A stretch of DNA of 64,000 bases from a virus: IMG/VR virus record IMGVR_UViG_3300047453_000110, positions 24,741 to 88,740 of that record; one strand, written 5' to 3'. The notes under the pieces were generated by a model that saw only the letters and a list, made by a program, of their open reading frames with translations, was not told the origin of the DNA and made no database searches. The position numbers were made by a program, and so were the translations under genes. The stretch's first letter is position 1; every line of letters begins with the position of its first letter. Below, piece after piece: positions 3,719 to 25,233 of this stretch.

Positions 3719-5172
3719 GGTGTAAATCTCTTACCTCTGTTCTCAAGTGCGTTACCGATTGGTTCATATCCGAACCTTGACGAAGGTGTCTTCTTCACGG
3801 TTCTACCAATCGATGGCGGTGTCTTACTTCTATACTTCGGATTCAGTCTGTCTTCTGATACGAGGACACCACCAATTGCATCGATGTTCGCACTATTTCT
3901 AAATGAAGACCTAATCTCTTGAGTGGTAGGAATCTTCGCAAATACATCTTTATAGTTGTCGGTCAACAGTATCTTCAGTTTCAACAGGTCATCAGCATCG
4001 ACCACAACGGTCTGAATTGCAAACGAACCTGTCGTTCCGTGGTTGACAACCTTGTCGATAGTGATTTGTGCCTGACCACTGATGCTTGCTTGGGACTTTG
4101 TTGCGAGAGAAGCAGTTTCATTATGTAGTGAGCCGGGACTATACGAAGCGTCAGTAAGAGTCCCAGTTATGTCGGCAGCCTCGTCAGCGCGTTCTGCCTT
4201 TTGTGCAACGTTGGCATTATACGCTTCAACCGCCTCATCTGCAATACCCTTGAATGTCCCGTGATAAATCGCACCAGACCCTTCGGCAGTTGCACCATCT
4301 TTGCCTTGATATACTCGTCCAGTGAAGTCAACCTGTTCACCACCGATAGAACCTTTCTGACCAAACACGGATACGTTGTTGACACCCGTCAGGTTAGATA
4401 CCTTAGATGTGACCGCGAACTGTTCCTTACCAGATATGAAGATGTTCTGTTCAGATGCGATATCGATGTCACCCTCAACCACATTCTGTTGATTACCCTT
4501 GACAACCTGATTATTATCTGCTAACATAACATCGGTATGCGTTCCGATAGTCTTGTTTGTATTCGTTCCTTTGGTCGTATACTGAGAGTTCTCTGTAACA
4601 GTTGTGCGATGGTTCTGTTCAATCTGTTCTACCAAATTACCCGCAACATTGACATTGAAGTTGCCACCAACATCTATATTATAGTCACCCGATACCTTCA
4701 TGTTCAGGTTACCGTGGTATACAAGGTTACCGTTACCCTCGATGATGACAGTCTGGTCACCACCCGTAACCTCGACCTTGTTGTTCAACGCAGAGATGAC
4801 TACCGAACCATCTGCTCTCATCTCTATACCCGCCCCCTTACGGTGACGCAGGAGAACTCGTTCCCCGCCTGGCGTATCGTCAAGTTCAATGACATGACCC
4901 GATGCAGTTTCCTGCACTTGGTTATTAGGATATTGTGATGGTCTCTGTGGTGCAATGTTTAGAGGAACACCGAAGTCACCACCACCAGCATACAGGTTGT
5001 TTACCTTTGTTCCTCGTGCCGCCTTGTTGATTGACACATCATAGTTGTAGTCTCTCTTAGGTAATGCACCTGTAGGGTCTTGCATACCATCAACAGGAAC
5101 ACCCAGAGTCTCCTCTTGTCCTGCCCCTAGATTTTCTACACGAAGTTCAAACTTATCTTTTTTTGTAGTCAT
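3715..5172 (-). CDS. 5: Baseplate central spike, gp5 C-terminal beta-helix part
   Basis: 485 residues. From about residue 85 it reads like gp5/VgrG-type spikes: GHVIELDDTPGGERVLLRH, then KGAGIEMRADGSVVISA. Short alternating-strand repeats follow (VEVTGGDQTVIIEGNGN, VSGDYNIDVGGNFNVNVAGN), typical of the triple-stranded beta-helix needle that punctures the outer membrane. There is no lysozyme domain and no N-terminal OB domain. The OB part is the gene at 6914-7777 and a separate amidase gene lies between them. The start is coupled to the amidase stop (ATGA). Confidence 0.82.
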   Translation of the reverse strand: MTTKKDKFELRVENLGAGQEETLGVPVDGMQDPTGALPKRDYNYDVSINKAARGTKVNNLYAGGGDFGVPLNIAPQRPSQYPNNQVQETASGHVIELDDTPGGERVLLRHRKGAGIEMRADGSVVISALNNKVEVTGGDQTVIIEGNGNLVYHGNLNMKVSGDYNIDVGGNFNVNVAGNLVEQIEQNHRTTVTENSQYTTKGTNTNKTIGTHTDVMLADNNQVVKGNQQNVVEGDIDIASEQNIFISGKEQFAVTSKVSNLTGVNNVSVFGQKGSIGGEQVDFTGRVYQGKDGATAEGSGAIYHGTFKGIADEAVEAYNANVAQKAERADEAADITGTLTDASYSPGSLHNETASLATKSQASISGQAQITIDKVVNHGTTGSFAIQTVVVDADDLLKLKILLTDNYKDVFAKIPTTQEIRSSFRNSANIDAIGGVLVSEDRLNPKYRSKTPPSIGRTVKKTPSSRFGYEPIGNALENRGKRFTP

Positions 5173-6914
5173 GATATTTCCGAAGGTTTGAGTGGCCCTG
5201 TATTCAATGGGTCGGTTGTCTTATTTGTTTTTCTGAAGATTGACTCCACATAATCAGGCACATCAAAGTATGGGTCAAGTTCTGCGACATCCACATCGTT
5301 GTGACCGAACACCTGACCGCCTGGAAACTTACGATAGAACGACTCAAGGAACTGTTCCAGTGTCGTGAACTGTGTGCGAGTGAACGAGTGTGGAGAACGA
5401 GAAGGGTTCTCCTGACCAGATGCAGCAGCCAATCCACCTACCATTACAACACCAATGGAAAGGTCATTGTGGTCATTCACGGGTGCGTGTTCACCCTTAC
5501 GGTTGACAGGTCTACCTCTTTGCAAACTACCATCTCTACGGATGACATAGTGAAACCCGATACCATCGTGTCCCAGTTTGTTGTGAATGTCATTTATCTC
5601 TGGTGACCCGATGTTCTTATTAGAATAAGTCTCTGTGGCGTGAATAATAACTTCTGTCACATCTCGTCTGACTGTAGAGAACTCTGCGTCTAGTTCCTCA
5701 ACCGAAGATACAAGGGTGAATGCATCTTGTGGCGTTTCTCTTCCAGCCCACTTGTTTGCAGTAGATGTAAGAGGCGTTGGTGCGTCGAATAAACTTGCAT
5801 CTACTACGGTTGAACCAGATATCGTTGTATCAAGGTCATTGAGTGACTTATCGATTGTATTGATTTCATTAACCACATCTTGGATTTCAGTATCAGGAAC
5901 ACCTTCCTCTTTACCAATCTTTCTAACATCATCTACCAACTCTTGTGTTGATGTTGCTTTACTCTGTGATACAAGAGTCTTCGTTCTGTCCGTAACATTC
6001 TCAGACTTATTTACAATCGTTTGTATTGCCTGCACCGATTGTTTAGGGTCTTTAGATGATACCTGACCTAACAGTTGTTTACTCTCTTCGTTAGATAATG
6101 TAATACCACCAGCAACAATATTTCTAAGAGATGACCTCGCATTACCTGTGAAAGATTCTGTAATATTTTGTAAGAATCCACCCTGAAGTCCTCTATCAAC
6201 AGAGGTTGATACATTGGTAAAAAATTCCGAAACACCCGCTTCAAAGTTATTAACTGATGTAGTTACATCATCAAAAACTCTGCGGCCCAATACACCAATG
6301 CTGCTGATTGTTGACAGTATATTCTTTGGTTTTATGGTTTCCGCATTCAATCCACCGATACCTGTTGCGTTTGATACAACATCTTTTGCATCAGCAACAA
6401 CACCACTCAGAGAAGACACAGGTGTAACACTTTTCGCGGCATCTAATGTGTCACCGAAGGATGGTGTTTGTGTGGTTGTTGGTGTTCCACCGATAGAACT
6501 AGTAAAAGAAGAAATCGAACTTTTTGTTGCCGCTGATTTCTCTTCAGCTTTCTTGGTTGCGGATTCTATGCCAGCAGGGCCACCTTGACCAATTGCAAGT
6601 ATACCACTCTTCGCTGTAGTGTTTGAAGAAAATCCACTTAGAGTATTTGCGTCTTCACTAGGAGTATCAAGACCACTCACACCGATATCATCAGTTATTT
6701 TTCCGACAGATGTATCTAACACTTCGTTGGGTGTGATACTCTCTTTACCAAGACTTTTGACACCACCAAGTATTTCACCGTCTTTTTGACCGACTTTAGT
6801 TTTTAACTTTGCATAAATCTCTTCAGATGTTTCTATTCCCAAGTCTAAAGGCTTAACCTCTCGTCTAGTAAGAGATTTTAGAGTAGTGTCTAGGTCTTGT
6901 TTATTCAACGCCAT
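5169..6914 (-). CDS. Tail-associated N-acetylmuramoyl-L-alanine amidase (amidase_2 / PGRP-like)
   Basis: 581 residues. Residues 1 to about 390 are Ser/Thr-rich and partly coiled-coil-like. Residues about 415-560 form an amidase_2 (T7-lysozyme/PGRP-like) domain: VTEVIIHATETYS (first zinc His), GFHYVIRRDGSLQRGRP (catalytic Tyr region), GEHAPVNDHNDLSIGVVMVG, and VFGHNDVDVAELDPYFD (second zinc His and Asp). This class cuts the amide bond between MurNAc and L-Ala in peptidoglycan. Lying between the two gp5 parts, it probably replaces the lysozyme domain that T4 has inside gp5. It is unlikely to be the free endolysin, since an M15 peptidase lies at 40190. Confidence 0.82.
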   Translation of the reverse strand: MALNKQDLDTTLKSLTRREVKPLDLGIETSEEIYAKLKTKVGQKDGEILGGVKSLGKESITPNEVLDTSVGKITDDIGVSGLDTPSEDANTLSGFSSNTTAKSGILAIGQGGPAGIESATKKAEEKSAATKSSISSFTSSIGGTPTTTQTPSFGDTLDAAKSVTPVSSLSGVVADAKDVVSNATGIGGLNAETIKPKNILSTISSIGVLGRRVFDDVTTSVNNFEAGVSEFFTNVSTSVDRGLQGGFLQNITESFTGNARSSLRNIVAGGITLSNEESKQLLGQVSSKDPKQSVQAIQTIVNKSENVTDRTKTLVSQSKATSTQELVDDVRKIGKEEGVPDTEIQDVVNEINTIDKSLNDLDTTISGSTVVDASLFDAPTPLTSTANKWAGRETPQDAFTLVSSVEELDAEFSTVRRDVTEVIIHATETYSNKNIGSPEINDIHNKLGHDGIGFHYVIRRDGSLQRGRPVNRKGEHAPVNDHNDLSIGVVMVGGLAAASGQENPSRSPHSFTRTQFTTLEQFLESFYRKFPGGQVFGHNDVDVAELDPYFDVPDYVESIFRKTNKTTDPLNTGPLKPSEIS

Positions 6915-7777
6915 TATACTATCCTATCAACTAATTCTCGTGCAATACGTTCAACACTACTTATTGTAGTTGCATCAGGTTTCTTGAGATAGTATTTACA
7001 GAAGATACTACACGTCCCCTTATCGCCTTCAAGTTTATCGGACTGAAGAAGTCTGATGTTCGCTGCACTTTGTGTTCCTCTCAACTCATATGCAATGAAT
7101 GAATTCTGTGTGAAGAAAGTTTTGTAGTCGTTAGAGAATGCTTTCAGGTCTGTGACTCTATTCTCTGACCAGTCTGCAAGTCCTTTGTTTTCGGTTGTGA
7201 GATTGGTCTTCATACCTGACACGAAAGATAGAGACGCGACAATACCGATTGATTGTTTGATGGTATACCCCAGATTCAAGAAGAACTGAACCGAAACCTT
7301 CTCACGATTTCTCTTCACAGACCTACCAATTGCACCCACTGTTTCATTCTTGATATCTATCTCCGATGGTTTATTCGCATTGAACACCTTCGTAAAGAAA
7401 TCTTCGGGCATCTCTTCGGTCAACCCACTCTCAGGAATACCTAACTGAACCTGTGTTGGAAGTTCGACATGAGGTATCGACCCCAGAATGATTGGTGTCT
7501 GAGAATGAATACCATCCATGAAGAACCCAAACACCAATGCGTTTGGTAACAGGTGAGGCATTCTACCGATACCTGATACACCACCCTCTGTGGTCGGCAA
7601 TACACACTGCGCCCACGGAAGGTCGTGTTGTGGAATATCTTTGGTGGACTCAGAATGCAGACCGTGAATACGAATCTTGAAACGACCCTCATATCCAGCA
7701 GGAGCCATATTGTCTATGACAGTTGCAACGAACCATCTGGTATTGTCACCGTAGTATTCTGATAGAATTGGATTCAT
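6914..7777 (-). CDS. 5: Baseplate hub gp5 N-terminal OB-fold part
   Basis: 287 residues. The first 110 residues match the gp5 OB domain: WFVATVIDNMAPAGYEGRFKIRIHGLH, then HDLPWAQCVLPTTEGG, then HLLPNALVFGFFMDG and TPIILGSIPH (quoted in parts). In T4 this domain docks gp5 onto the gp27 trimer and is followed in the same chain by lysozyme and beta-helix domains; here the chain ends after about 170 further residues of unknown fold. The neighbour upstream is the gp27-like gene, as expected for the hub. Starts and stops overlap on both sides. Confidence 0.8.
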   Translation of the reverse strand: MNPILSEYYGDNTRWFVATVIDNMAPAGYEGRFKIRIHGLHSESTKDIPQHDLPWAQCVLPTTEGGVSGIGRMPHLLPNALVFGFFMDGIHSQTPIILGSIPHVELPTQVQLGIPESGLTEEMPEDFFTKVFNANKPSEIDIKNETVGAIGRSVKRNREKVSVQFFLNLGYTIKQSIGIVASLSFVSGMKTNLTTENKGLADWSENRVTDLKAFSNDYKTFFTQNSFIAYELRGTQSAANIRLLQSDKLEGDKGTCSIFCKYYLKKPDATTISSVERIARELVDRIV

Positions 7778-11274: not shown

Positions 11275-11859
11275 ATGAGTAACTTATTCCAAAGACTGGA
11301 ACTGCAAGCATTCCGTGCTGGTATTACACCACGCACGAAGGAATCGCGTGAATGGTTTCGTAAGAAAGCAAAGAACCTTCGTTCTGTCAACCGTGAAGCG
11401 TTGATGCAAGAGAAGGAATTGAATCGTGGCAACAGACAAATCATTGGTTCGATGCAGATGTTCTTCTATGACCCGAAGACCAAAGACACCCTTCCATACT
11501 ATGATGCGTTTCCTCTGGTGATTGTGGTTGGCCCTGCGGAAGGTGGGTTCTATGGATTGAACCTTCACTATCTTCCACCACTTCTTCGTGCGAAGTTCCT
11601 TGACTCCCTTCTGGATATCCAGTCCAGTAAGACGAGTGATGATTCCAAGTTCAATATCACCTATAAGAGATTGCAGGCTGCAAGTAAGTTCAAGTATTTC
11701 AAACCATGTTTCAAACACTATCTGAATGACCATGTGAAGAGTAAGTTCGCAGAAGTCCAAGCACCAGAGTGGGAAATCGCAACCTTCCTACCAACCGCAG
11801 ACTTCCGCAAGAGAAACTCTTCCAAAGTGTTCTCAGATTCAAGACGGATGATAGGATAA
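11275..11859 (+). CDS. 2: DNA end protector protein gp2-like
   Basis: 194 residues. The core reads MQMFFYDPKTKDTLPYYDAF, PLVIVVG, FYGLNLHYLPPLLRAKFLDS, a pattern I associate with phage proteins annotated as DNA end protectors. T4 gp2 (about 274 residues) binds packaged DNA ends and shields them from RecBCD. Adjacency to gp4 agrees with T4 gene order. The ATG lies 5 nt after a TATAAATA element and has no clear ribosome-binding site. Family assignment is moderately sure. Confidence 0.62.
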   Translation: MSNLFQRLELQAFRAGITPRTKESREWFRKKAKNLRSVNREALMQEKELNRGNRQIIGSMQMFFYDPKTKDTLPYYDAFPLVIVVGPAEGGFYGLNLHYLPPLLRAKFLDSLLDIQSSKTSDDSKFNITYKRLQAASKFKYFKPCFKHYLNDHVKSKFAEVQAPEWEIATFLPTADFRKRNSSKVFSDSRRMIG

Positions 11860-12581
11860 TGGTATTTCGCGTAGACGATTTTAGAGCGCAAGTAAGTAGG
11901 GGTGGTGGGTTCGCATCACAGAACATGTTCCGTGTTCAACTGCCTCGTATTCAGGGTGCGCCTCTGGGTGGTAACGACCCAAGAGAATTAGACATGTTGT
12001 GTCGTGTAACTAGTTTGCCAGGCCGTCAGGTTTTGTCAACGGACAAACAGATTGGAACAGTTCTAACCAAAGTTGCAAACGGATATGCAGTTGCAGATTT
12101 GAATATGACATTCTACTGCATGAACGACTATGGTATTCGCAGATACTTTGAGGCATGGCAGAACCTTGCACACAATCGAGAAACAAAAACGATTGGGTAT
12201 TTCAAAGACTATGCCAAACCAGTTGTCATTCAACAACTGAAGAAGGGTGTGTCATTCCCAATCAAAAAGAAGAAAGTTTTTGATACTGGTAGAATTCCTA
12301 GTGGTATTCGTAATCGTCTCCCTCGTATTGGGCCACTTGACCTTGCACAGGGTGAGATTGATTTGAACGGTATCTTTGGTGACCAGATTGCATACAGTTG
12401 TGTTCTTGAGAATGCATACCCAACAACACTGAATGAAATCACACTAAATAATGAAACGCAAGATGTTGTGGAAGTGTCAGTCCAATTGTCTTACAAAGAC
12501 TGGCGCTCCCAACAAGGCGAAATCTCCAGCGGTTTGGTTGAAGGTCTCGCAGGCGAATTGATTCGTAGAGTATTAAGGTAA
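11859..12581 (+). CDS. 54: Tail-tube-like baseplate protein (gp54 / gp19-fold candidate)
   Basis: 240 residues from the ATG at 11859, which overlaps the gp2 stop (TAATG); an upstream in-frame ATG at 11769 lies inside gp2 and is unlikely. The sequence LDMLCRVTSLPGRQV, then TVLTKVANGYAVADLNMTFY, then YGIRRYFEAWQNLAHN is typical of T4 gp19-fold tube proteins. Because it is larger than gp19 and lies next to gp26, it is most likely the tube initiator gp54 rather than the main tube protein. Confidence 0.6.
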   Translation: MVFRVDDFRAQVSRGGGFASQNMFRVQLPRIQGAPLGGNDPRELDMLCRVTSLPGRQVLSTDKQIGTVLTKVANGYAVADLNMTFYCMNDYGIRRYFEAWQNLAHNRETKTIGYFKDYAKPVVIQQLKKGVSFPIKKKKVFDTGRIPSGIRNRLPRIGPLDLAQGEIDLNGIFGDQIAYSCVLENAYPTTLNEITLNNETQDVVEVSVQLSYKDWRSQQGEISSGLVEGLAGELIRRVLR

Positions 12582-12596
12582 TTATGGAGTTAAATT

Positions 12597-13301
12597 ATGG
12601 CATTACCCAAGTTAAATGATACACCGAAGTATGAACTAGAAATCCCTTCCACAGGAAGTGTAATATCATATCGGCCGTATCTTGTCAAGGAAGAAAAAAT
12701 TCTTCTTATGGCATTTGAGTCGCAAGACCAGAAACAAGCAATGAGAGCAATGGTAGACACGGTTGCTGCCTGTGTGTATGAGGATATAAATCCACAATCA
12801 CTGACAACCTTTGATGTTGAATATATGTTCTTACAAATTCGTTCCAAATCTGTTGGTGAAACATCAACGATTGGTGTGAAGTGTTCTGAGTGTGAACATC
12901 AGAATGAAGTGGTTATCCCTGTTGGTGACATCAAGATTCCAAAATCAGATGTGAGTAAACTAATTGAACTTACCCCAGAGATTTCTATTGAGATGACATA
13001 CCCAAAATTCAATGAAGTCGTTGATGGATATGAAGAGGGTAAACAGGAAAGTAAATTTGCATTTGAACTAATTGAAAAAAGTATTGGTGCAATCATCACT
13101 CCTGATGAGAGAATCAACACCAACGAAGTTAAATCAGTCGAAGTAAAAGAATTTGTTGAATCCATGACAACCGCACAGTTGTCTATGGTATCAGACTTTG
13201 TAGAACAAATGCCTACACTGAAACATGACATCGAATTCAATTGTTCGAATTGTAGTTCAGATAATAAACAAGAACTGAGAGGGGTCGCTGATTTTTTCTG
13301 A
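12597..13301 (+). CDS. 26: Baseplate hub/tape-measure chaperone gp26-like; zero-frame product
   Basis: 234 residues (T4 gp26 has 208). It starts MALPKLNDTPKYELEIPSTG and contains two CxxC pairs, CSEC near residue 99 and CSNC near residue 221, consistent with a zinc-bound T4_baseplate-family protein. The ATG has GGAG at good spacing. The zero frame ends in TTT TTC TGA. The last seven coding bases form a canonical -1 slippery heptamer, and a 60-codon extension opens exactly there (see 13292-13298 and 13298-13480). This is the arrangement of lambda G/GT-type tail chaperones just before the tape measure. Confidence 0.8.
   Translation: MALPKLNDTPKYELEIPSTGSVISYRPYLVKEEKILLMAFESQDQKQAMRAMVDTVAACVYEDINPQSLTTFDVEYMFLQIRSKSVGETSTIGVKCSECEHQNEVVIPVGDIKIPKSDVSKLIELTPEISIEMTYPKFNEVVDGYEEGKQESKFAFELIEKSIGAIITPDERINTNEVKSVEVKEFVESMTTAQLSMVSDFVEQMPTLKHDIEFNCSNCSSDNKQELRGVADFF
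13292..13298 (+). promoter_or_regulatory. -1 ribosomal frameshift site (T TTT TTC)
   Basis: In the gp26 frame the heptamer reads T TTT TTC and is followed directly by TGA (13299-13301). Both Phe codons can re-pair one base back. The -1 frame has a TGA at 13289-13291 just upstream, so it can only be entered at or after this site. A short palindrome CTCTCATGAGAG (13309-13320) lies 10 nt downstream and could form a weak 4-bp hairpin. Confidence 0.75.
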
Positions 13302-13480
13302 TAAGCCTCTCTCATGAGAGTTTAGTGAATCATTATAATACGAACTTTTCTATGATGCAACACTTTAAATACTCATTAACGGAACTGGATATGATGATGC
13401 CGTGGGAGAGGGAAATATATGTCAGTATGTTATTGCAACACCTAGAAGAAGAAAAAGAAAGAGCAAAACAAAATGGCTGA
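13298..13480 (+). CDS. Frameshift extension of gp26 (T-like tail chaperone domain)
   Basis: After a -1 slip the ribosome continues from CTG at 13298 for 60 residues to TGA at 13478-13480, giving a fusion of about 294 residues. The extension ends with SLTELDMMMPWEREIYVSML, then LQHLEEEKERAKQNG, a helix-plus-MPW pattern like tape-measure-binding T domains. No ribosome-binding site precedes the internal ATGs at 13352 or 13355. The stop overlaps the tape-measure start by 8 bases, as in lambda. Confidence 0.72.
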   Translation: MISLSHESLVNHYNTNFSMMQHFKYSLTELDMMMPWEREIYVSMLLQHLEEEKERAKQNG

Positions 13481-15008
13481 GATGAACGCCGTCACTGAAC
13501 AACTAAAACATAACAGTGAACAACAACAAGAAGACGCAAAAGAGAACCGCGAAGTTCTTAGTAAAATTGTCGGCAAATTTGCTGAGATGTTCAAACGTGA
13601 TGACCGTAGTAAACTTGATGCACTTGAATCCCAAAGGGATAAAGATAAAAAGGCAAAAGAAACACTTGCACCATTAGCAAAGGTCAGTGCTAAAGATATT
13701 CTGTCTCCAAGCGGAATACTTGGTGTTGCGGGTGCGGGTGCAGTCGGGGCTATTGTTGGTCTTGCATCAGCCTATGCAAACTTCTATAAAGATTTGTTTC
13801 AAAGAATCGCTGGTGGTGATAAGAATGGTAAGAAAGGATTCTTTGGTCTTATGAGAACACGGATTCTCGCACCATTCAAAAATTTCATGATTGGGTTTAC
13901 CAAGATTGGAGCTGAGATAAATGCTGGTGTGAAAGGTCTAAAAGAACTCAAAGTTTCAGACTTTACCACTAAAATGGCTAAACTAGGTGCAACACTAAGA
14001 TTGTCACTCGCTGGTGGTATTCTCAAACCGTTTGGTGATTTGGTTCGTGGAATAATTGAGCCATTCAAATTCTTGAGAGAAAATTTCAAATCTTTCGGGG
14101 TTGATAAAAATCCTGTTATACGAGCAATCTCTAATTTTGTTGGAGTGTTTGGCCGCTTTCTTGGTTTCTTTGTTGGAATAATTGGTAGAGTATTCTCAGC
14201 GCCATTTGTTTTTGCATTTAATTTCGTTAAAGAACTGATTACTGGTGAGGGTGATATTGGACAAAGAATTGTCACCGGCCTCCTAGAAGGTGTTCGAGGT
14301 GTCATCAACTTCTTTATCTTTGACTTCGTTGAAATCATAACAGGTGGGTTAAGAAAAGTATCTGAATATTTCGACTTTGAATTTGGTGTAAAAGTTGCAG
14401 ATGCTTTTGATAAAACTATTGGAAAAATAGGTGATGCATTCAACGAAGCGTTTGACCTTTTGACAGGATTTGTCTTGGGTGAAGATTTGAATGAATTAGC
14501 AAATAATTCACCAACTCTTCAAGCGTTTGTAGAATGGCTTAAACTTGGTTGGTTGAGAGACGGAGTTGCAGAACTTTTTTCCTTTGCTGACAATTATGTA
14601 AAAGAAAGTATCATTCCAAAAGTAAAGAGTATTTTTGACTTCGTTGGTGAACTATTCGACAGATTGGTTCAAAACGTAAAAAGCTTTATAAAAGACAAAC
14701 TTGGAATAACAGACGCCGGTGAAGTGCAAGGCAATGCTTTTCAAGATGTAAATCAAGCTGATTTGTCTGATGAACAACGCAAGTTCTTAGAACAAAGAAA
14801 TCAAGCACTACAGAAAATTAAAGAAGAAAACCTACAGGGTGATGCATTGAAGTCACGTCTCGATGCAATCAATAAGTTGGCAACAGAACAAGGTGTTGCA
14901 GGAATGAACTATGTGGACAATAGCACTGGTGCAATTTATCAGTCAGCAAACTCATTTATTCAAGACTACTCGGCTGCAACCGACGATACCGACAAGAAGC
15001 CTAATTAA
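13473..15008 (+). CDS. Tape measure / tail length protein candidate (gp29-position)
   Basis: 511 residues. Residues 1-75 are a charged coiled-coil-like region. From about residue 83 there are Gly/Ala-rich and strongly hydrophobic helices (GILGVAGAGAVGAIVGLASA; then FVGVFGRFLGFFVGIIGRVF), as in tape measure proteins. The C-terminus is again charged. By length it would span roughly the tail of a T4-like phage, and it follows the frameshifted chaperone gene. T4 gp29 is about 590 residues; identity to it is not evident. Confidence 0.68.
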   Translation: MAEMNAVTEQLKHNSEQQQEDAKENREVLSKIVGKFAEMFKRDDRSKLDALESQRDKDKKAKETLAPLAKVSAKDILSPSGILGVAGAGAVGAIVGLASAYANFYKDLFQRIAGGDKNGKKGFFGLMRTRILAPFKNFMIGFTKIGAEINAGVKGLKELKVSDFTTKMAKLGATLRLSLAGGILKPFGDLVRGIIEPFKFLRENFKSFGVDKNPVIRAISNFVGVFGRFLGFFVGIIGRVFSAPFVFAFNFVKELITGEGDIGQRIVTGLLEGVRGVINFFIFDFVEIITGGLRKVSEYFDFEFGVKVADAFDKTIGKIGDAFNEAFDLLTGFVLGEDLNELANNSPTLQAFVEWLKLGWLRDGVAELFSFADNYVKESIIPKVKSIFDFVGELFDRLVQNVKSFIKDKLGITDAGEVQGNAFQDVNQADLSDEQRKFLEQRNQALQKIKEENLQGDALKSRLDAINKLATEQGVAGMNYVDNSTGAIYQSANSFIQDYSAATDDTDKKPN

Positions 15009-20408: not shown

Positions 20409-21293
20409 ATGAGTCAAGAGTTACATATCTATACAGGTGAAGATGATAAAATCGACCTAGTAAATTTCAACGACCTTGGGATGTGTTATATTAATCTTGC
20501 TGATGAAATCGAACAATACTTTGTTGATAACTGGGAAAATCTCGGCGAATCTATAAATTACCCTGATGTGTATAAAGTAGCTGCTGGTGGTATATTCCAA
20601 AATGGCGTGTTCATGAATAATCTTTTATACAAAATGGGTAAAAGAAATGTTTTGTTTGTAACAAACTATAACGATTCTGATATGAGTGATGGTTTTTTAC
20701 TTAGTGACATATCTGGTGTGACAAATCCTAGCGCTACGAAAGCTAATCTTGGCGAACTTTGGACACCTATGGTTAAACATTTTGGAGCTTTTGTAAAATT
20801 CACATCCGCTTTTAAACCTAATGATATGAGTTTGGTAAAATATCTACACGGTAGATATGGTGTTCCCGCAACTAATTGTAATGAGAAATACGAACTAGGT
20901 ATGACTGATTGGGAGATTGAAACTCCATCTTCAAAATACGATGTTGTTATATTGTCGGGTATTCCAAATCCTAGTGGTCAGGTTCATAGCGCGGAAGATA
21001 TTAAATCAGTCTTCGCGCCATACTGCACCGACGATTTTATTCTTTTTGATATGTTTGAATCTGAACAATCTAGACTAGACTATGTTAAGTTGTGGCCCAA
21101 TTTTGATGTAGACGAATTGAAAAGAATTGGGTCTGAGAGAACTCAAAGAATCGAAGGTGATAAATTAGACTTTATAGAGGAATGTAGAACTATAAATACT
21201 TACAGTCTAACTTCTGAAAGAATTGAAGAATCGACCCAAGCTTTCAACAGAATTAGTGATATTTTGTTTGAATATTATGTGGATATTTTTTAA
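20409..21293 (+). CDS. Unknown Rossmann-like protein B (paralogue of previous gene)
   Basis: 294 residues. The shared landmarks with protein A are VAAGGIFQNGVFMNNLLYKM, NVLFVTNYND, the LYGVY/GRYGVP region, and YDVVILSGIPNPSG followed by IKSVFAPYCTDDFILFDMFE. It is longer at the C-terminus, where an acidic helical tail follows. I infer a tandem duplication and divergence. No function is assigned. Confidence 0.6.
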   Translation: MSQELHIYTGEDDKIDLVNFNDLGMCYINLADEIEQYFVDNWENLGESINYPDVYKVAAGGIFQNGVFMNNLLYKMGKRNVLFVTNYNDSDMSDGFLLSDISGVTNPSATKANLGELWTPMVKHFGAFVKFTSAFKPNDMSLVKYLHGRYGVPATNCNEKYELGMTDWEIETPSSKYDVVILSGIPNPSGQVHSAEDIKSVFAPYCTDDFILFDMFESEQSRLDYVKLWPNFDVDELKRIGSERTQRIEGDKLDFIEECRTINTYSLTSERIEESTQAFNRISDILFEYYVDIF

Positions 21294-21982
21294 TGTTATC
21301 ATTTAACCAATTCCAATATATCGAAGAGGGTGTTAACGACCCTGCAATCTTCAAGGCAGTATTCCTTGCGGGTGGGCCTGGGTCTGGTAAATCTTTTATC
21401 GTAGGTAAGACTGGTCTTCCGCAACTTGGTTTCCGTGTTGTCAACTCTGACGATGCGTTTGAGGTCATGATGAAGAAGGCGGGTAAGGCAATGACCTCTG
21501 ACGAGATTTTCTCTGATGAGGGTCAAGCGATTCGTGGTAGAGCAAAAGCACAGACCAGACTGAAACAAGACATATACATGAAGGGTCGCCTTGGTTTAGT
21601 TATTGATGGAACTGGTAAAGACGTAAATAAAATCATCAAACAAGCAAAAGAACTACAAGACTTAGGGTATGACACTAAGATGATTCTCGTGAATACCGAC
21701 ATTGAGACCGCAATCAAGAGAGACTCACAGAGAACACGTTCACTTGGTAAGAAGAAGGTTACCGAATACTGGAACACCGTTCAGAAGAATATTGGTGGGC
21801 TACAAACTGTTTTTGGTAAGAAAAACTTTATGATAGTAGATAACTCAGAGGGCAAGGACTATCAGAAAGAAACTCTTCGTGCATATCGTGATGTGAAGAA
21901 GTTTATAAGTAAAGACCCTGAGAACCCACTCGCCAAGAAGTGGATTAAACAAGAAAAAGAGAAGCGCGGTATTACTCGTTAA
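21293..21982 (+). CDS. P-loop kinase-like protein with capsid-targeting-like N-terminus
   Basis: 229 residues. Walker A is GGPGSGKS (residues about 27-34) in the context KAVFLAGGPGSGKSFIVGK, with NSDD and LGLVIDGTGKD downstream as in zeta-toxin or polynucleotide-kinase-like P-loop enzymes, and RDSQRTRSLGKKKV as a possible lid. The N-terminus MLSFNQFQYIEEG resembles the T4 capsid targeting sequence (MKTYQEFIAEA) and has an IEE-G protease-type site at residues 10-13, so it may be packaged in the head. Last gene of the late unit; its stop overlaps the converging gene. Confidence 0.7.
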   Translation: MLSFNQFQYIEEGVNDPAIFKAVFLAGGPGSGKSFIVGKTGLPQLGFRVVNSDDAFEVMMKKAGKAMTSDEIFSDEGQAIRGRAKAQTRLKQDIYMKGRLGLVIDGTGKDVNKIIKQAKELQDLGYDTKMILVNTDIETAIKRDSQRTRSLGKKKVTEYWNTVQKNIGGLQTVFGKKNFMIVDNSEGKDYQKETLRAYRDVKKFISKDPENPLAKKWIKQEKEKRGITR

Positions 21983-24590: not shown

Positions 24591-25233
24591 TCATTTGTTT
24601 CCTTATTGCTTGATTACCTTTTTCACCTGTATGGTGAACAATTAGTGGCTTCCTCACTGCGATACCATCTTGATAGTCGATACGCAATGTATTATATGTG
24701 TGAGGTAATGGATTTATATATGCAAGTTTTTTCAACTCATCTCCACCCATCATAAAGTAGAGAACCTCTTGGTCACCCTGCACTGGATTACTAACACAGT
24801 TACTTGCCCAGTCCCCAAGTATTGTGGGTGTTCCTTCAATCAGAACAACACCAGAATTATACCATTTACCCATCTCATTCCTTCGAGCAGTCCACGGTCT
24901 ATCCTCTACCATACCAAGTTTGTTTGGTTCAGACAGGTCAAAGATATGTTCTATATTCCCTTTGATTTCACAATCAGTATCAATCCAACAAACCTTGTCA
25001 ACATCTCTGAGACGTGAGGTTGTCAGTATCGCACGGGGTTTCTTGAACCAACCCTTTTCCTGCGATTTGATAGGAATGATATGATACATGGATATGTGAC
25101 TCAACATCTCTTCGGACATACCGAAGTCAGCAATGATGAGGCGACCTTCATTGTGTCGTTCAAAGTTATGAATGAACCACGGGAGTTGCCACTCTGTGTT
25201 GATATCACATCCAGTTAGAAATACTTCACGCAT
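24583..25233 (-). CDS. Glycosyltransferase-like protein (GT-A, DxD)
   Basis: 216 residues from the ATG at 25233 (MREVFLTGCDINTEWQLPWF), which overlaps the upstream gene by 8 bases. KVCWIDTDCEIKGNIEHIFD carries a DxD-type metal motif as in GT8-like enzymes, with WYNSGVVLIEG and VQGDQEVLYFMM later. A donor cannot be assigned. Confidence 0.65.
   Translation of the reverse strand: MREVFLTGCDINTEWQLPWFIHNFERHNEGRLIIADFGMSEEMLSHISMYHIIPIKSQEKGWFKKPRAILTTSRLRDVDKVCWIDTDCEIKGNIEHIFDLSEPNKLGMVEDRPWTARRNEMGKWYNSGVVLIEGTPTILGDWASNCVSNPVQGDQEVLYFMMGGDELKKLAYINPLPHTYNTLRIDYQDGIAVRKPLIVHHTGEKGNQAIRKQMNV

Follow-up and report, generated by a model that had tools for sequence, protein, structure and literature searches.

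Phage lambda makes two tail assembly chaperones from gene G, a short gene in which a -1 shift near the 3′ end, at the slip sequence G GGA AAG, produces the long fused form G-T. For the tail assembly chaperones of T4-like phages, frameshifting was reportedly found to be conserved in several groups by Vladimirov, Gautam and Davidson (Virology 2022), and T4 itself is said to use genes 26 and 51. In papers that cite the latter work (PMC10274946, PMC12846349, and PMC12859696), some T4-like phages are described as having a short gene and, apart from it, a fused one, and polyT slip sequences are given as known in the TAC-N genes of T4-like phages (the 2025 paper, PMC12846349). A review of the T4 tail (PMC3004832) presents gp26 and gp51 as hub assembly chaperones. 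Our literature search found no paper connecting the 'baseplate hub assembly catalyst' with a frameshift. Tail chaperones made by frameshifting have thus been described before in T4-like phages, and the locus analyzed here is a further example; what we add is the quantitative conservation, a test of the stimulator, and the exceptions, namely S-SCSM1, Agtrevirus-like relatives lacking the heptamer, and nine relatives bearing an early ATG.

The window, a stretch of 64,000 nucleotides, covers positions 24,741 to 88,740 of the IMG/VR virus record IMGVR_UViG_3300047453_000110. Judging from the comparisons below, gene 26 in the window very likely makes two proteins through a -1 ribosomal frameshift. 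All of the features of the gene 26 locus described here lie on the plus strand.

Gene 26, the slip site, and the related systems

The gene 26 homologue (12597-13301) encodes the short chaperone form (TAC-N) of 234 residues, and its matches to PF12322 (T4_baseplate; E = 1.3e-54, 185.6 bits against the Pfam cut-off of 24.5) and phrog_150 (E = 1.6e-56) place it in the T4 gp26 family. A tail tube protein gene lies directly upstream (11769-12581; phrog_45, E = 4e-33). The downstream ORF (13473-15008; 511 residues) had no PHROG or Pfam match and probably encodes the tape measure protein, given its position and three hydrophobic stretches. Two CxxC pairs were found in gp26 together with weak matches to CapR and zinc-ribbon models, all under the cut-offs of those models, as if the short chaperone binds zinc.

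The 3′ end of gene 26 reads GAT TTT TTC TGA and contains, as the original prediction held, the slippery heptamer T TTT TTC in the phase of gp26 (13292-13298). The -1 frame is closed by a TGA directly upstream of the heptamer (13289-13291), opens from 13292, and runs for 60 codons after the slip (13298-13477) to a stop at 13478-13480. We regard this frame (13292-13480) as encoding the C-terminal chaperone module (TAC-C, or 'gp51'), read as a fusion with gp26, on the basis of the family match and the substitution pattern given below. Its 62-codon translation matched phrog_634, 'gp51, baseplate hub assembly catalyst' (E = 6.8e-26), as well as phrog_150, the gp26 family, at its far end (231-279, E = 7.3e-5). 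The product of a -1 slip, join(12597..13298,13298..13480) with base 13298 read twice, is predicted to comprise 294 residues (234 + 60), in agreement with the length anticipated, and its slip-spanning peptide covers ADFFLISLSHESL. The ATG of the putative tape measure gene (13473) sits 8 bases ahead of the end of the -1 frame stop, so the 8-base overlap that had been claimed is present in the DNA.

Most ribosomes would read gene 26 to the TGA and yield the 234-residue short form. Some, after decoding TTT-TTC, would slip with both Phe tRNAs moving back by one base onto TTT-TTT (13292-13297), and reading would continue from CTG at 13298 to 13480; the resulting form of 294 residues would end in a mostly helical module of 60 residues. 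If the roles of lambda gpG/gpGT carry over, both forms may hold the neighbouring tape measure protein so that the tail tube grows to length. The occurrence of the slip, its rate, the action of a stimulator, and the chaperone role are what we infer; the last of these is suggested for the gp26 forms by homology, gene position, and fold.

In T4, gp26 represents the short form alone (PF12322, E = 8.8e-64). T4 gp51 (249 residues) matched both PF12322 (residues 1-201, E = 3.9e-52) and phrog_634 (residues 147-246, E = 1.2e-23), and its residues 205-244 were aligned to the -1 module of the window (hhalign E = 7.8e-5, probability 62%). By these alignments, T4 gp51 joins in a single frame the two parts found in the window, and the -1 module is homologous to the C-terminal part of T4 gp51. 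Thus, T4, with gene 26 for the short and gene 51 for the fused long form, encodes in separate genes the same two protein parts that the window phage would encode by one gene and a -1 slip. One PF12322 gene, one gp51 module, and no separate full-length gene 51 were found in the record of 88.7 kb, possibly a fragment. The proposed reading ties T4 genes 26 and 51 to the chaperone pair of the lambda type.

The original prediction that the locus copies lambda G-T-H holds for the gene layout but not for the sequences. Lambda H starts 8 bases before T ends, as the ORF following the -1 frame does in the window, whereas the lambda slip sequence is unlike T TTT TTC and neither lambda gpG nor gpT has detectable sequence homology to the window proteins (hhalign probability 0.1 for both). 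Of 86 distinct sequences in which the next ORF has 150 codons or more, only 7 show an 8-base overlap. Because the spacing varies in this way among the relatives, the equal overlap in the window and lambda is probably a coincidence. The complete following ORFs of the relatives (first 40 of the list) ranged from 429 to 759 residues.

The AlphaFold2 model of gp26 (pLDDT 86.7) had no significant Foldseek match among solved structures (best E 0.46), with the HK97 tail assembly chaperone 2ob9 at rank 5 (E 0.77, probability 0.63). When VIA-align was applied to the Foldseek shortlist, 3fgx (an uncharacterised Bacillus protein; Z 8.5), 2ob9 (7.6), and 3klu (YqbN; 7.0) came ahead of the next structure (4.5), all three within gp26 residues 1-96 and with Z scores near or under the caution limit of 8 of the tool. 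We take 3fgx and YqbN to be phage chaperones of the XkdN type. 2ob9 aligned with the N-terminal ~86 residues of the model (85 aligned, rmsd 3.3, 8% identity), and gp26 differs from it in having a further second half, in which the two CxxC pairs reside. Among predicted viral structures, the model had 64 matches at E of 0.001 or below, which were other gp26-type hub proteins. Altogether, the fold comparison is supportive of a tail chaperone rather than a proof. A sequence search of solved structures returned nothing below E 0.08 for gp26 or the -1 module, and when predicted viral structures were searched by fold with the 62-residue module, the best E was 0.68; this lack of a match does not in itself indicate a new fold.

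Conservation of the slip site and coding in the -1 frame

Two sets of IMG/VR loci were compared, the best 80 by gp26 among the matches listed and the best 80 of 237 by the -1 peptide. One locus (L010) ends right after gp26 and was dropped, leaving 159 loci with both parts (79 by gp26 alone and 80 by the -1 peptide; some contigs are in both). Together with the window, they amount to 107 distinct sequences, 103 of which have the gp26 stop no more than 13 bases from the slip and were used in the selection and stimulator tests. The related sequences are not independent of one another in the counts below. One locus (L082) possesses gp26 and a -1 peptide identical to those of the window.

In these best-match sets, gp51 was found in the -1 frame in all of the 159 loci, and every one of the 159 carries T TTT TTN in phase, the last place being taken by T, C, A, or G; the T run comprises 6 to 8 T in the relatives and 6 T in the window. 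Elsewhere in the 107 distinct gp26 genes, an in-phase T TTT TT occurred at only 3 of 22,865 codon positions (last 60 bases excluded). As Phe-Phe kept in both frames forces TTTTTT in part, the conservation signals are not independent. We also examined 25 named phages other than T4, picked from the match lists so as to cover their breadth. Of these, 21 carry T TTT TTN in phase, and in 20 of the 21 the -1 frame extends for at least 58 codons: seven cyanophages, pelagiphage Mosig, C48C1, phiOC, phiN3, phiM12, RHph_I1_18, KVP40, nt-1, Cronobacter S13, Aeromonas PX29, Mendera, Desulfovibrio 7757, and Vibrio 2.275, the last of which has a long -1 peptide not recognised as gp51. The comparison of homologues that had been proposed as a check thus came out positive: all 159 loci keep the heptamer together with the -1 peptide, and 20 of the 25 named phages have the heptamer together with a long -1 frame.

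The codons immediately behind the slip bear on how the -1 peptide is made. Over codons 4-10 of the -1 frame after the slip, pN/pS was 0.34, in contrast to 2.10 and 4.52 when the same DNA was read in the 0 and +1 frames (65 to 67 distinct stretches; pairs with at most 35% of bases differing). In 92 of the 107 distinct sequences, no ATG, GTG, or TTG occurs between the point where the -1 frame opens and the end of codon 8 after the slip, and in the window the conserved stretch FFLISLSHESL lies upstream of every ATG, GTG, or TTG of that frame. The window has its first start candidate at codon 12, where a GTG (13325) follows GAGAG. By this substitution pattern, the -1 codons directly after the slip evolve as protein while having no start of their own in the window, and the comparison establishes both the heptamer and the fact that the -1 frame is coding from the slip site onward.

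The -1 ORF could alternatively be a separate small protein ('gp51') initiated by re-initiation or coupling after the gp26 stop, which we consider improbable although it survives better than the other alternatives. It would fit the annotated records examined, most of which present gp51 as a separate CDS and none of which flags a joined gene here, as well as the ATG at the gp26 stop in KVP40, nt-1, and Cygsa01. ATG was also found at codons 5-7 after the slip in 9 of the 20 named phages (P-SSM2, S-PM2, phiN3, phiM12, KVP40, nt-1, Mendera, MA01, and S-WAM1), and a separate or additional gp51 start is possible in those nine relatives, unlike in the window. The claim that no ribosome-binding site serves internal starts was loosely put, since GAGAG lies four bases upstream of GTG 13325, but that GTG still cannot account for the conserved peptide ahead of it. 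If initiation took place at GTG 13325, the selected stretch would be untranslated; a separate start therefore cannot make that peptide in the window, and separate initiation of gp51 was rejected for the window phage. The protein-level selection on codons 4-10 and the lack of early starts in most of the relatives likewise argue against a separate protein. Moreover, the annotated gp51 starts vary between records, and gp51 is absent from the annotation of ACG-2014e, S-CAM1, Cronobacter S13, and S-WAM1. In cyanophages and pelagiphages, the 'gp51 baseplate hub assembly catalyst' (phrog_634) is the same -1 peptide in the same place, either separated or omitted in the records. In the compared marine T4-like phages, this 'gp51' is most likely the tail end of a frameshifted gp26 and no protein of its own.

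Stimulators and other routes to the fusion

In Escherichia coli dnaX, frameshifting involves a Shine-Dalgarno-like stimulator upstream of a different heptamer and a strong downstream hairpin. The window shares an upstream Shine-Dalgarno-like element with dnaX, while no counterpart of the strong downstream hairpin was shown. The element, AGAGGGG (13278-13284), lies 7 bases before the heptamer and is a probable frameshift stimulator according to a synonymous-codon test. All 103 of 103 homologues have a glycine codon, GGN, at -11 to -9, which together with the adjoining codons forms the Shine-Dalgarno-like stretch. The choice among synonymous codons is biased here: glutamate directly before the invariant glycine is encoded by GAG in 31 of 42 cases (31% elsewhere in the same genes), and the glycine codon itself is GGG in 24 of 103 (6% elsewhere). 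Over the 103 homologues, the mean energy of the duplex with the anti-Shine-Dalgarno sequence was -6.02 kcal/mol against -5.08 for synonymous redraws, and none of 60 redraw means reached the former value. Other stretches of the same genes had a mean of -2.37, with 9.5% reaching -6.02; the value for the window is -7.7. Only 43% of the 103 homologues were at -6 kcal/mol or below, which makes the element a tendency and no rule. Altogether, the upstream element probably stimulates the slip, and the evidence at synonymous sites offers a testable handle on the ratio of the two forms.

Downstream of the slip, the stretch from +9 to +60 forms a more stable fold (-6.63) than its synonymous redraws do (-3.45; mean z -1.55, n = 92), the excess being weaker in three control stretches (z -0.24 to -0.39). 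With a dinucleotide control, z was -1.67 from +7 and still about -1 at +30 to +60. RNAalifold found no common downstream structure among 50 relatives thinned by similarity, and one candidate helix was weak (67.7% of cells paired; 5 of 500 shuffles reached the same). In the window, the downstream fold is ordinary (z -0.67); a possible 5-bp hairpin, CTCTC-TCAT-GAGAG (13307-13320), 8 bases after the heptamer, was seen in folds, and the covariation test gave no support for it as a conserved element. By these results, a conserved pseudoknot or hairpin downstream of the slip is possible, whereas the upstream element is likely.

RNA polymerase slipping on the T run could also create the fusion, with no involvement of the ribosome. 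Runs of 6 to 8 T in the relatives would suit such slippage; on the other hand, the run in the window has only 6 T, the codon phase is strictly kept in 159 of 159 loci, and the preference for the Shine-Dalgarno-like element at synonymous sites points to ribosomes, so that we regard polymerase slippage as even more improbable than a separate gp51. A sequencing error or a decaying pseudogene, in which an indel split a single gp26-gp51 gene that one base would rejoin, can practically be dismissed, as the same arrangement recurs in all 159 loci, which come from many metagenomes, as well as in 20 of the 25 named phages, which belong to several families, and the -1 part is under selection.

With the -1 ribosomal frameshift as the preferred reading, we tentatively propose, at somewhat less than even confidence, that marine T4-like phages share a tuned cassette, in which a Shine-Dalgarno-like element ~7-9 bases upstream and a downstream RNA structure, both kept by synonymous codons, would set the ratio of short to long chaperone. 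As part of the same proposal, the -1 shift would persist in Agtrevirus-like relatives, which have no T6 heptamer, at another site around ATT TTC.

Departures among relatives and other genes in the window

The arrangement is broken in S-SCSM1 (L185, around 1590-1625), in which the heptamer is kept but only 6 codons of the -1 frame follow before a stop, the rest of gp51 being in the +1 frame. The break may be an indel, either natural in the phage or from sequencing. Four named phages, Klebsiella 21072, K474, Cygsa01, and Salmonella Agtrevirus, lack the hexamer. Klebsiella 21072 has a T4-like gene order, and the other three have TAATG at the gp26 stop. Homologues that lack the heptamer and keep the downstream peptide with its own start, named in the original prediction as evidence against the shift, were found, but only farther off (K474, Cygsa01, and Salmonella Agtrevirus), the heptamer being present throughout the closer set (159 of 159).

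In the gp26 genes of T4, Klebsiella 21072, and three IMG/VR loci (L188-L190), the slip codons read TTC TTT. T4-type gp26 was considered as a natural control in which Phe-Phe is kept and the slip codons are lost. This was rejected: the sequences are too few, and L192, a T4-type gp26, is contrary, as TTT TTT is kept although its -1 frame is not gp51.

A gp51-like peptide was observed in the -1 frame behind gp26 in Salmonella Agtrevirus and its relatives (L194-L211 and L180), as well as in L178 and L179. In L194-L211, the -1 peptide is conserved, with a pN/pS of 0.15 over 12 codons (7 distinct stretches, 18 loci). The Agtrevirus-like relatives carry ATT TTC in place of the T6 heptamer, and 15 of the 18 Agtrevirus-like IMG/VR loci have TAATT, not TAATG, at the gp26 stop. 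Because of these two replacements, their -1 peptide is explained by neither a canonical slip nor an ATG start.

Apart from the gene 26 locus, the window encodes a tail-region protein with an N-acetylmuramoyl-L-alanine amidase domain (Amidase_2; 5169-6914, minus strand), which adjoins a protein combining a gp5-type OB domain and a tail lysozyme (6914-7777). An AAA/zeta-toxin-like kinase (21293-21982, plus strand) and a sulfotransferase family protein (PF03567; 23492-24193, minus strand) were also detected in this phage genome.
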